21,505 nt of DNA. It comes from a virus. The notes under the pieces were generated by a model. That model had not been told where the DNA came from. It saw nothing but the letters and a program-made list of their open reading frames with translations, and made no database searches. Position 1 is the stretch's first letter, and each line of letters starts with the position of its first letter. The position numbers and the translations under genes were made by a program. Below are positions 2,331-9,100 of this stretch, one piece after another. The stretch spans positions 1 to 21,505 of IMG/VR virus record IMGVR_UViG_3300021389_000184. The stretch is one strand, 5' to 3'.

Positions 2331-2654
2331 ATGGAAGTAAAAGGAAAATTAGTTAAGTTTCTAAACTTAGAAACAGGAACAAGTAAGTCAGGAAAAGAAT
2401 GGCAAAAGCAAACAGTTGTTATTGATACAGGCAATGAATTTAATAACTTAATAGCAGTAAGTGCTTTTGGTGATAAAGTTGAACGAATGAATAAATTAGA
2501 AGAAGGTACGACAGTAGCTATTCTTTGTAATGTCTATTCAAGAGAATACAATGGAAAGTATTATCATAATATAGATGGTTACCATTTCGTACAACAGAGT
2601 AATAACACTGAAGTAAATGTAGATGTAGATACTTCTGAAGATTTACCATTTTAA
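2331..2654 (+). CDS. DUF3127-like single-stranded DNA-binding protein
   Basis: This 107-residue protein opens MEVKGKLVKFLNLETGTSKSG and continues with KEWQKQ, the FGDKVE turn and SREYNGKYYHNI. This is the pattern of DUF3127, an OB-fold family common in Bacteroidota and their phages. The C terminus, DTSEDLPF, matches the acidic, Phe-ended tail that bacterial SSBs use to recruit replication and repair proteins. Together these support binding and protection of single-stranded phage DNA. The gene has its own A-rich leader (repeated TAAA) and is followed after 1 nt by the DnaA-like gene. The fold is established for the family; partner recruitment is inferred from the tail. Confidence 0.8.
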   Translation: MEVKGKLVKFLNLETGTSKSGKEWQKQTVVIDTGNEFNNLIAVSAFGDKVERMNKLEEGTTVAILCNVYSREYNGKYYHNIDGYHFVQQSNNTEVNVDVDTSEDLPF

Positions 2655-2655
2655 G

Positions 2656-3165
2656 ATGACTGAAGAATTAAACTTTAAAGCTATATGCGACCTTACTACT
2701 AGAGTAGTAGGGTTGCCTAGTGGCTGTTTATCTTTAAAAAATAGAGAAAGGGAATTGCAGACTGCTCGTTCAGTAGCAGGTTATATTGGATTGATTGAAG
2801 AAAATATAGACAGGAATGTAATTGCTAAAGTATTAAATAGAGATAGAACAGCTACATATCATTATGAAAGGACTCACGATAAGAACTTTAAGCATTGTAA
2901 AATATATAGAAACACTTTTACAAAAGTTTATAAGGAGTACAAAGATATTGATGGACAAAAAGATATATTTATCAATAATAGACAGATGAGAAATCACCTA
3001 TTGCAAAATAAAGTGATGGAATCTAAAGATTCTGATGTTAAATTAATGGTAGAAAGTGGTAGAGCTAAATGTACTATTCATACTTCTTACTTAGATTTTT
3101 CTAATCAAATAGAAAATATTAAGTTAGCAATGAGGAATTACCATTTTAAAATTGATATTATATGA
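2656..3165 (+). CDS. DnaA domain IV-like DNA-binding protein
   Basis: This protein has 169 residues. Residues 29-72 resemble the DNA-binding domain IV of DnaA: a basic RERELQTARSVAGY helix, a middle helix, then LNRDRTATYHYE, corresponding to the DnaA signature where Asp-His-Thr/Ser precedes a recognition helix. The AAA+ ATPase part of DnaA is absent. The remaining C-terminal 95 residues are basic and unrecognised. It lies between an SSB-like gene and a replication initiator gene and overlaps the latter by 4 nt. A role in binding the phage origin, or in mimicking or competing with host DnaA, is plausible but inferred. Confidence 0.6.
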   Translation: MTEELNFKAICDLTTRVVGLPSGCLSLKNRERELQTARSVAGYIGLIEENIDRNVIAKVLNRDRTATYHYERTHDKNFKHCKIYRNTFTKVYKEYKDIDGQKDIFINNRQMRNHLLQNKVMESKDSDVKLMVESGRAKCTIHTSYLDFSNQIENIKLAMRNYHFKIDII

Positions 3166-3806
3166 AAAACCTATTAAGCAGTACTGCATTTCTAGTATTA
3201 AATAAAGAATTGGCTAGGAAGATAGGTTTAAAGGAAGCTATAATGTTAGCAGATTTAATTAGCAAGGAAGAATACTTTATTTCAAAAGGAATGACTGATG
3301 GTTGGTTTTTTAATACTGAAGCAAATATAGAAGCTGACACTACACTAAACCCATATAATCAAAGAAAGTGTCTTAAAACACTTAAAAAGTATGAAATAAT
3401 AGAAACTAAGCGTAAAGGTATACCTGCAAAACAATACTTTAAAATAAATGAATATCAAGTCCTTCAAATTTTAAACAACTTGTTAGATAAAAATTTAACA
3501 ACTATTAATAAGAATAAAGAAATAATAATAAATAATAATATATCTAATAGGAAGAATGATTTTGTTTTTGAGGTTTTAACTTTTGATTATGAAGAAAGTA
3601 TATTAAATGCCTTTATAGATTATTGGACTGAACCAAATAAGTCAAATACAAAAATGAAATTCGAGTTAAACAAAACTTGGAAGACAGGATTAAGATTAAA
3701 GACGTGGGTAACTAATCAAAAGAAATGGGATAAACCTAAGCCAAAGGGAACTTCTAAATTAGATGCTCAGATTAATGAATGGCAAAAAGCAAAGAACTTA
3801 ATATGA
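3162..3806 (+). CDS. Phage replication initiator, winged-helix type
   Basis: This 214-residue protein is built like phage replisome organisers. Residues 1-105 form a winged-helix DNA-binding region (LNKELARKIGLKEAIMLADLI, then GWFFNTEANIEADTTL, a helix with QRKCLKTLKK and the wing KRKGIPAKQYFKI). A very Asn/Lys/Ile-rich linker (about 106-135) follows, then a C-terminal segment (about 150-214) with FIDYWTEPNKS and a basic end. Such proteins bind the phage origin and help load the host helicase. The linker codons form the most AT-rich stretch of the gene, recalling lambda O, where the origin lies inside the initiator gene. It overlaps its neighbours by 4 nt on both sides. Confidence 0.7.
   Translation: MKNLLSSTAFLVLNKELARKIGLKEAIMLADLISKEEYFISKGMTDGWFFNTEANIEADTTLNPYNQRKCLKTLKKYEIIETKRKGIPAKQYFKINEYQVLQILNNLLDKNLTTINKNKEIIINNNISNRKNDFVFEVLTFDYEESILNAFIDYWTEPNKSNTKMKFELNKTWKTGLRLKTWVTNQKKWDKPKPKGTSKLDAQINEWQKAKNLI
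3487..3550. other. Candidate AT-rich replication origin inside initiator gene
   Basis: This stretch encodes the low-complexity linker of the replication initiator and consists almost only of A and T, with repeated AATAATAAT units. In lambda-like phages the origin lies in the matching place within gene O. No convincing longer iterons are seen on either side, so this is a positional and compositional inference only. Confidence 0.25.
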
Positions 3807-3985
3807 AATTAACAGATTATGAATTAGAAGATGTAAAATCTTGGGATTATCCTGACTTTTGTGATGCATTTATAAGTTATGCAGAAGATGAGAATGGTAA
3901 TGAAATGACTGAAGAACAAATACAAGAATGGACAGAAAACAATGAAGAAGAATTTTATGAAATGATATTAAATAATTTAAGATGA
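3803..3985 (+). CDS. Small acidic hypothetical protein
   Basis: This is a 60-residue, strongly acidic protein containing WDYPDFCDAFISYAEDENGNEMTEEQ and a Glu-rich helix. I chose ATG 3803 because it forms an ATGA overlap with the stop of the initiator gene. An upstream in-frame ATG at 3779 would give a 28-nt overlap. The DYPDFCDAFI-x-A pattern followed by a TEEQ helix recurs, as far as I recall, in small uncharacterised phage proteins from marine hosts. High negative charge would fit a DNA mimic or protein-binding adaptor, but no function can be assigned. Confidence 0.6.
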   Translation: MKLTDYELEDVKSWDYPDFCDAFISYAEDENGNEMTEEQIQEWTENNEEEFYEMILNNLR

Positions 3986-7922: not shown

Positions 7923-8459
7923 ATGAGACAACAAGTTAAGATATACAAAATAAAAGGAAACCCTAAAAATCCTAGAATAATTAAAAATGATAAATTTAAA
8001 AAATTAGTCAAGTCTATACAGGAATTTCCTGAGATGCTAGAAAAAAGACCAATAGTAGTTGATGAAGATATGATGGTATTAGGTGGCAATATGAGACTTA
8101 AAGCAAGTAAGGAAGCAGGACTAAAAGAAGTATGGATAGATATTGCAAAAGGTTGGTCACAAGAACAAAAAGATGAATTTATAGTAAAAGATAATGTAGG
8201 TTTTGGTGATTGGGAATATGATATGTTAGCTAATGAATGGGATAGTGTACAACTTTCTGAATGGGGTTTAGATGTATGGCAAAATGAAGATGACTTAGAA
8301 GAACCTGACTTTAATGAATTAACAGAAGATAATAAAAAAGAATCAGTAATTAAAATAACATTTAAAAATGAAAAAGATTTGGAAGATGCAGAAAAAGAAA
8401 TAGCAAAAATAGTTAATGAATATGATAAAGCATTTTATTCAGTTAGTTCAGAAAAGTGA
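7923..8459 (+). CDS. ParB/Srx-like domain protein
   Basis: This 178-residue protein has an N-terminal ParB-like domain (about residues 5-85): NPKNPR (13-18), a helix with KLVKSIQEF, KRPIVVDED, then LGGNMRLKA (53-61), where GGN-x-R is the signature nucleotide-binding loop. The C-terminal half is very acidic and helical (DLEEPDFNELTEDNKK). Phages often encode ParB-like proteins beside DNA methyltransferases or other modification enzymes, where they may recognise DNA or regulate access to it. Here the partner is Mom, joined by a GTGA overlap, so a shared role in DNA modification is likely. The family is clear; the activity is not. Confidence 0.75.
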   Translation: MRQQVKIYKIKGNPKNPRIIKNDKFKKLVKSIQEFPEMLEKRPIVVDEDMMVLGGNMRLKASKEAGLKEVWIDIAKGWSQEQKDEFIVKDNVGFGDWEYDMLANEWDSVQLSEWGLDVWQNEDDLEEPDFNELTEDNKKESVIKITFKNEKDLEDAEKEIAKIVNEYDKAFYSVSSEK

Positions 8460-9043
8460 GATTGGATAAAGCATCATATAAAGCAGTTAAGTATGCCTGT
8501 CTTAAATTTCACTATGCGAAGACAGTTCCTGTAACTAATATATCTTATTCTGTATTTAATAATAAGAATGAATGGTGTGGTGTTATTTGTTATGGTTTAG
8601 GTGCAAATTATTTATTAGGCAAAACTTATGGAGTAGTATCAGGACAATTTCTAGAATTAACTAGAATGGCTTTAAATGGAAAGCAAGAAAGTACAAGCAA
8701 GGCAATGGCAATATCTATTAAGCTATTAAAAAAACATAAACCATTAGTTAAGATTTTAATAAGTTATGCAGATAAAGGACAAAAACATTTAGGGATTATA
8801 TATCAGGCAACAAATTGGTTTTTTGTAAATGAAACATTATCTAGTGGTTGGGAGATTTTTTATGAGAATAAATGGTGGCACGATAGAAGTATAATGAATA
8901 GAATGACATTAAAAGAAAAAAAGAATGTAATAAAAAGAAAGAAGTCAGGTAAATATAAATACATATACCCTCTAACAAAAGAATTAAAAGATAAGTGTTT
9001 AGAATTAAAAAAACCTTATCCTAAAAATGCGAGTAAAGCATAA
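8456..9043 (+). CDS. mom: Mom-family DNA adenine modification protein
   Basis: This 195-residue protein aligns by eye with Mu Mom-type GNAT-fold enzymes: FHYAKTVP (18-25), WCGVICYG (40-47), LELTRMAL (66-73), then SYADKGQKHLGIIYQATNW (103-121), the most characteristic Mom block with its conserved Asp. Mu Mom converts adenine to N6-carbamoylmethyladenine (a glycinamide-like group), blocking many restriction enzymes. It starts with GTG in a GTGA overlap with the ParB-like gene, which could lower its expression; Mu mom is also tightly restrained. The last five codons (ASKA-stop) form the 5' strand of a tRNA-like acceptor stem, so the transcript of this gene contains the RNA described next. Confidence 0.85.
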   Translation: MRLDKASYKAVKYACLKFHYAKTVPVTNISYSVFNNKNEWCGVICYGLGANYLLGKTYGVVSGQFLELTRMALNGKQESTSKAMAISIKLLKKHKPLVKILISYADKGQKHLGIIYQATNWFFVNETLSSGWEIFYENKWWHDRSIMNRMTLKEKKNVIKRKKSGKYKYIYPLTKELKDKCLELKKPYPKNASKA

Positions 9044-9100
9044 AGAGTAATGCGTTGACTATTCCAAGTCAAAGAAGGGGTGCAATTCCACCTACTCGCT
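9029..9100 (+). tRNA. Noncanonical tRNA-Gly(UCC)-like gene overlapping mom 3' end
   Basis: A 72-nt cloverleaf can be drawn. Acceptor stem GCGAGTA (9029-9035) pairs perfectly with TACTCGC (9093-9099), with unpaired T at 9100, the discriminator of bacterial tRNA-Gly. D stem GCAT/ATGC (9038-9041, 9050-9053). Anticodon stem TTGAC/GTCAA (9055-9059, 9068-9072) encloses TTCCAA, giving anticodon UCC. The T arm is GGTG/CACC (9079-9082, 9089-9092), or a weaker five-pair version with loop TGCAATT. Oddities: the D loop (AAAGAGTA) lacks GG; the anticodon loop has 8 nt, or 6 nt with an extra pair; GTGC replaces GTTC in the T arm; CCA is not encoded. Standard detectors may miss it. Alternatives are a packaging-related or purely structural element before terS. 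Confidence 0.6.

Follow-up and report, generated by a model that had tools for sequence, protein, structure and literature searches.

What is a tRNA-like gene doing in the last codons of a gene for a DNA-modifying enzyme? The question is raised by IMG/VR virus record IMGVR_UViG_3300021389_000184, of which positions 1 to 21,505 were analysed (this whole stretch of 21,505 nt is called the window). In the window, the gene mom, which encodes a GNAT-fold DNA-modifying enzyme of the Mom family, runs into a tRNA-Gly-like RNA at 9029-9100 on the plus strand. A sequence-only reading of the window had suggested that this RNA may be charged with glycine and used by Mom, not by the ribosome. From its linkage to mom and its pattern of conservation, we consider it highly probable that this glycine tRNA is dedicated to Mom as its glycyl donor and takes no part in translation.

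A tRNA-Gly-like RNA overlaps the end of a mom gene

The RNA was confirmed from the sequence. The coordinates and strand, the perfect 7-bp acceptor stem, the discriminator U and the anticodon UCC were as the sequence-only reading had them, and so were the 8-nt anticodon loop (TATTCCAA), the D loop without GG (AAAGAGTA) and the TGC that replaces TTC in the T loop. Its start was also correctly placed inside the last five codons of mom: the RNA begins with a GCG codon of mom, the fifth from the end if the stop is counted, giving an overlap of 15 nt and leaving 57 nt beyond the mom stop. The four arms of the proposed cloverleaf are present. The T stem had to be revised, as it is not a regular five-pair stem: GGGG faces CC-A-CC, in which the A at 9090 is bulged. 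Tested with tRNA finders, the RNA was not reported by ARAGORN and was detected by the Rfam tRNA model at 37.1 bits (E 1.2e-4; gathering threshold 29) and by R1, a covariance model of the mom-linked RNA family, at 75.6 bits. Folding gave z = -3.5, with equal stability in 1/200 shuffles, and no other such RNA was found in the 21.5-kb record.

The window RNA fails canonical elongator features in its D loop, its T loop (TGCAATT), the bulged A of its T stem and its 8-nt anticodon loop. It has the full bacterial glycine identity set, namely U73, G1-C72, C2-G71, G3-C70, C35 and C36. It belongs to the family of mom-linked RNAs that we define here by a distance of no more than about 500 nt from mom, an acceptor of the form GCG...CGC-U, NCC, and a bulged A in the T stem.

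The neighbour of the RNA is a true Mom. The protein matched the Mom profiles of Pfam (PF25680, E 1.1e-34) and PHROGs (phrog_1384, E 6.7e-44). Its AlphaFold2 model, with a predicted local distance difference test score (pLDDT) of 94.6, had Mu Mom (8bv8) as its best solved match (Z 20.0, root-mean-square deviation (rmsd) 2.9 over 178 residues), and its S81 and D106 align with S124 and D149 of the Mu enzyme. The next-best matches after 8bv8 were ordinary GNAT acetyltransferases; neither FemX nor Aat structures were among the fold matches listed.

The RNA follows mom across phages

Locus counts are given among the matches listed, from redundant collections, and the E-values of R1 and of R2 (a second covariance model, built from a class without D arm that R1 misses) are rough. 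Searching viral contigs with the window Mom gave a first set of the 80 closest mom loci. A GCG...CGC-U cloverleaf was found at the mom 3' end in 79 of these, on the same strand in 56 and on the opposite strand in 23. At the last one (L068), R1 found the RNA about 430 nt downstream of mom, bringing the count to 80/80. R2 recovered the RNA at 53 of 87 further mom loci. Overall, the RNA lies beside mom at 285/319 viral-contig mom loci and, when Moms are clustered at 70% identity, in 98 of 151.

The RNA is downstream of mom in 322 cases, antisense in 93 and upstream in 9. On a Mom tree, which predates the addition of the R2 hits and has many weak inner branches, carriers of the RNA fall on either side of the deepest split, and the position of the RNA has switched at least 10 times. 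Because the position varies in this way, mom and the RNA are not one frozen block. A distant search with three further Mom queries and bacterial genomes, followed by R1 on the loci, revealed the RNA at mom loci in assemblies of Bacteroidota, Acidobacteriota, Chloroflexota (upstream of mom), Calditrichota, Ignavibacteriota, Bacillota and Pseudomonadota, as well as in actinobacterial phages. Among named phages, Salinibacter phage B2_17 has an annotated tRNA-Gly beside mom that scores 68.5 bits with R1 and retains the bulge at 70% GC. An unannotated RNA beside mom in Arthrobacter phage BarretLemon scores 49 bits with R1 and has a 5-nt D loop and a regular T stem, and Microbacterium phage Appa has an annotated tRNA-Gly (ccc) beside mom.

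The linkage also holds in reverse. The exact bulged T-arm pattern, used blind to mom on viral loci, hit 118 new loci, and 115 of them contain a real RNA. A Mom gene lies within about 400 nt of 108 of these 115 RNAs; the remaining 7 are at the end of their locus, with a cut Mom visible in two. Pattern hits at L531, L483 and L473 were rejected as chance, being inside a coding gene or without an R1 match at the hit. The survey of related phages that the sequence-only reading had called for thus shows strong linkage to mom in both directions.

The position of the window RNA, 13 nt before the small terminase gene, raises the alternative that it is an element of the packaging region or serves for integration close to the terminase genes, since tRNA genes are common attachment (att) sites. 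As a control, we examined 80 loci with a large terminase 79-100% identical to that of the window, some of which have little sequence before the terminase. Both loci with mom have the RNA (2/2), and 77 of the 78 without mom lack it despite having the same terminase (p = 9e-4). The RNA follows mom, not the terminase. In other phage groups mom and the RNA adjoin other genes, profile searches with genes of the window recognised no integrase, and the paired positions of the RNA vary freely. Of all the explanations weighed here, a packaging or att element is the least probable, and we give it almost no credence.

Paired positions covary and glycine identity bases are kept

The sequence-only reading had also asked for compensatory changes, and these are abundant. 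In the 51 distinct RNAs of the first set, all four stems covary and 96.9% of cells are paired. There are 284 double-change cells compared to 78.5 in shuffles, and slid controls collapse. The bulged A on the 3' side of the T stem is present in 51/51 RNAs of the first set and in 264/278 overall; the bulged fold is fully paired in 51/51, and the pairs that flank the bulged A covary in these 51. The bulged A in the T stem is therefore a hallmark of the family. Since the RNA is kept at related mom loci with covariation in all four stems, the window RNA is not a chance structure.

Against this variation, a few bases hardly change. Among 278 distinct RNAs, G1-C72 was found in 278, C2-G71 in 278, G3-C70 in 276, U73 in 277, and NCC in the anticodon region in 278. 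A stricter test for CC at positions 35-36 of the hairpin loop succeeded in 237 of the first 245 RNAs, and inspection by eye showed that the remaining 8 agree. At acceptor positions 4-7 pairing is kept in 99-100%, with all Watson-Crick types occurring. R1 favours the acceptor bases, so that departures from the identity set could be missed; given the 80 loci of the first set and the searches that started from mom, there are few loci left for such a hidden class. By amino acid type, all 278 distinct mom-linked RNAs are glycine only. A mom-linked RNA with A73 instead of U73 was seen at L253 (1425-1498) and L255 (2092-2165), and A73 is the discriminator of archaeal and eukaryotic tRNA-Gly. Bacterial glycine identity has been summarised as U73, G1-C72, C2-G71, G3-C70, C35 and C36 (Table 1 of 'The tRNA identity landscape', PMC9976931), and the strictly kept bases of the mom-linked RNAs are this published list.

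Features needed for decoding are often lost

The features that serve decoding are much less constant. U33 is retained in just 128/232 RNAs, and position 34 is U in 169, A in 52 and C in 11. The T loop opens with TTC in 133 of 245 RNAs and otherwise in 112. The D-loop GG is absent in 50 of the 196 RNAs that have a D arm. In 78/278 the D arm itself is gone, and this class, 64-68 nt long, still covaries in the acceptor and T stems and has the bulged A in 78/78. When 20 loci were tested, 3 passed the Rfam tRNA threshold, and most relatives lie below it. This pattern suggests that selection keeps the bases read by the synthetase and drops those that elongation factor Tu (EF-Tu) and the ribosome need, the last step being judged from established tRNA knowledge.

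These losses bear on the alternative of an ordinary phage tRNA-Gly that supplements translation and lies beside mom by accident. Phages often carry tRNAs, the window cloverleaf is above the Rfam threshold and the Appa copy looks nearly canonical. An accidental neighbour of this kind does not fit with glycine being the only amino acid type among the mom-linked RNAs, with the lack of the RNA in close relatives without mom, with A34, with the disappearance of U33, D-loop GG, T-loop TTC and entire D arms, or with most members falling under the Rfam threshold. We regard this alternative as very unlikely.

Points against a donor role and the overlap with the mom frame

Several observations weigh against the RNA being a dedicated glycyl donor for Mom. 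Neither R1 nor R2 found a linked RNA in Mu-like, Listeria, Staphylococcus, ICP1, Proteus, Salmonella and T4-like phages, nor was one found at the mom of phiEf11-type Enterococcus prophages, and 34 of 53 non-redundant Mom hits in the genome collection were without it. Since these Mom phages do without the RNA, it is not required by Mom in general; they may use host tRNA-Gly. The window RNA retains U33 and a near-normal cloverleaf, and for that RNA alone translational use is possible. Finally, 147 of 197 RNAs are inside the mom reading frame, and some of the constraint could be coding. The RNAs within the mom frame occur in all three frames, and this, together with the covariation of the stems, indicates that coding constraint does not explain the RNAs, although it may shape them.

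At many of the loci L102-L340 (for example L223 750-816), an RNA without D arm is wholly inside the mom reading frame. Processing of an RNA in this position would cut the mom message, and a switch between enzyme and RNA is possible. The same overlap, together with the control of Mu mom by Com at the RNA level (PMC6483171), could point to a cis-acting structure in the mom mRNA, that is, an uncharged tRNA mimic acting in processing, stability or translational control. Such an element would have no reason to retain U73, G1-C72, C2-G71, G3-C70 and C35-C36, and where the RNA is on the opposite strand (93) or upstream (9), it does not form the 3' end of the mom mRNA. We give a cis-acting element as little weight as an ordinary tRNA, and a dedicated glycyl donor remains the reading that we prefer.

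Some mom loci differ in their tRNA content. A second copy of the RNA was seen at L290 (1-30, partial; 2116-2186) and at L320 (1312-1378; 2023-2089). In Synechococcus phage S-SSM7 (L096 2038-2352), Ile, Thr, Arg and Leu tRNAs, none of them Gly, end just upstream of a mom-like gene.

tRNA-Gly genes beside a second GNAT family

The sole terminase relative that has the RNA without mom (L603) carries it at 2495-2565 (43.7 bits, anticodon ACC), 14 nt before a gene (2579-3931) for a 450-aa DAM-like/GNAT-like fusion protein (PF22555-PF22559). At L623, whose fusion protein is 27% identical to that of L603, a tRNA-Gly(UCC) of 66 bits lies 158 nt before the gene. In Mycobacterium phage Taptic an annotated tRNA-Gly(tcc) overlaps the start of the fusion gene, and in Gordonia phages Clawz and Soos an unannotated tRNA-Gly is directly upstream of it. 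No tRNA was seen at the fusion gene of L621, L622 and ValentiniPuff. The GNAT domain of the fusion protein was modelled (pLDDT 73) and folds as a GNAT; in the fold comparison Mu Mom came second (Z 10.0, rmsd 3.3, 139 aligned), tied with ordinary GNATs. Profile comparison of the fusion family with Mom gave 39% probability (E 3e-4), and a wide search with a single DAM-GNAT protein returned a self-match only.

The second family is a lead, not a result. We are evenly divided on whether phages beyond those with Mom generally feed DNA modification from tRNAs, with a dedicated tRNA-Gly for at least two GNAT families, Mom and PF22555-PF22559. In Faecalibacterium phage FP_Brigit (L627, about 2231-2308), a lysine-type tRNA (CTT) with a D loop without GG was seen upstream of the DAM-GNAT gene, and amino acids other than glycine may be used as donor.

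In a different role, the RNA would counter host defences directed at glycyl-tRNA, by attack or acylation, as a decoy or as a replacement tRNA-Gly, and would form an anti-defence cassette together with mom. Acetylation of glycyl-tRNA is known from GNAT toxins such as TacT, which read U73 and G71 (PMC9976931, PMC9241777), and Mom is itself anti-restriction. A decoy would not be expected to keep so strictly to a single gene in widely differing phages or to leave out every amino acid but glycine beside mom, and the exception without mom adjoins another GNAT candidate for DNA modification. We hold a decoy to be even less likely than a cis-acting element.

Gene neighbourhood of the window RNA

The features of the locus are collected in Table 1. 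The gene order in the window is adenine methylase, ParB-like, mom, RNA, small terminase and large terminase. A ParB-like gene also precedes mom in phiEf11, Appa and BarretLemon; in other phages one comes after the DAM-GNAT gene. These genes seem to belong to the same modification cassettes.

Table 1. Coordinates of the mom locus and of the parts of the mom-linked RNA in the window
Feature	Position	Strand	Details
ParB-like gene, directly upstream of mom	7923..8459	+	PF02195 (weak), phrog_498, phrog_620
mom, Mom-family GNAT-fold DNA-modifying enzyme	8456..9043	+	195 aa, GTG start; PF25680, phrog_1384, structure match
mom-linked tRNA-Gly-like RNA	9029..9100	+	CCA not encoded; Rfam tRNA 37.1 bits, R1 75.6 bits; layout GCGAGTA AA GCAT-AAAGAGTA-ATGC G TTGAC-TATTCCAA-GTCAA AGAA GGGG-TGCAATT-CC(A)CC TACTCGC T
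Acceptor stem, 5' strand	9029..9035	+	GCGAGTA; G1, C2, G3 = glycine identity
D arm	9038..9053	+	GCAT-AAAGAGTA-ATGC; loop without GG
Anticodon arm	9055..9072	+	stem TTGAC/GTCAA, 8-nt loop TATTCCAA; anticodon UCC 9063-9065
T arm	9077..9092	+	GGGG-TGCAATT-CC(A)CC; bulged A at 9090
Acceptor stem, 3' strand, and discriminator	9093..9100	+	TACTCGC and U73

Proposed role and relation to known systems

From the RNA, its linkage to mom, its pattern of conservation and the Mom identity of its neighbour, all observed here, we infer charging of the mom-linked RNA, its avoidance of translation and the transfer of glycine to DNA. The RNA would be processed out of, or beside, the mom transcript, and the host would add its CCA end. 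Host glycyl-tRNA synthetase would then charge it with glycine, needing only the retained acceptor-end and anticodon bases. With its altered D arm and T loop and its bulged T stem, the RNA would be a poor client of EF-Tu and the ribosome, so that the glycine would not be spent on protein. Mom, a GNAT-fold transferase, would move the glycyl group from the RNA to N6 of adenine in the phage DNA. Mom is known to produce N6-carbamoylmethyl-adenine, and the point of the sequence-only reading that this and N6-glycyl-adenine are isomers of equal mass is sound. The known product could arise from glycyl-N6-adenine if the glycine amine attacked C6 in a Smiles-type shift, which predicts where a labelled nitrogen would end up.

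The core chemistry is not new. A 2023 preprint by Silva et al. (doi 10.1101/2023.03.24.534169) reportedly describes a viral enzyme together with a charged tRNA; going by its title, the use of a charged tRNA by Mom has already been reported for Mu. The window Mom is of the same family and fold as Mu Mom (Z 20 to 8bv8), and the title implies a charged-tRNA donor there too. In contrast to the window phage, which brings an altered tRNA-Gly of its own, Mu-like phages are without a linked RNA and must use host tRNA, if any. A 2025 review cites Silva et al. 2023 for Mom (PMC12707154). The linkage of tRNA genes to mom may have been among the clues that led to that preprint. In our literature search, which covered the preprint by title only, we found no description of the mom-linked RNA family, and no report of a second GNAT family (PF22555-PF22559) with adjacent tRNA-Gly.

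Staphylococcal cell-wall tRNA-Gly isoacceptors, used by FemX/A/B, are charged and kept from translation, as proposed here for the mom-linked RNAs, with the D-loop GG lost and the T loop changed. They are bacterial genes and donate to peptidoglycan, whereas the mom-linked RNAs are linked to mom, mostly have the bulged A and lack the D arm in 78 of 278. GNAT toxins of the TacT type read the acceptor end of tRNA-Gly at U73 and G71 (PMC9976931); TacT adds acetyl to glycyl-tRNA, whereas Mom is proposed to take the glycyl group from it. A glycyl-coenzyme A (CoA) model for Mom has the same glycyl group and the same adenine N6 target, with CoA as donor (PMC7824862). It differs from our proposal in the donor, and the presence of a tRNA-Gly beside mom speaks in favour of tRNA.

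The idea that DNA modification can draw on aminoacyl-tRNA is recent and, so far as we found, rests on one phage. If our reading is true, a widespread family of synthetase-readable tRNAs beside the enzyme would be strong independent support for an aminoacyl-tRNA donor, and its members would supply ready-made assay substrates. The link to the second GNAT family makes the function of the fusion protein directly testable. The mom-linked RNAs, most of which escape standard tRNA finders, would join the few tRNA families that work outside translation, and their D-armless forms would be unusual in bacteria.
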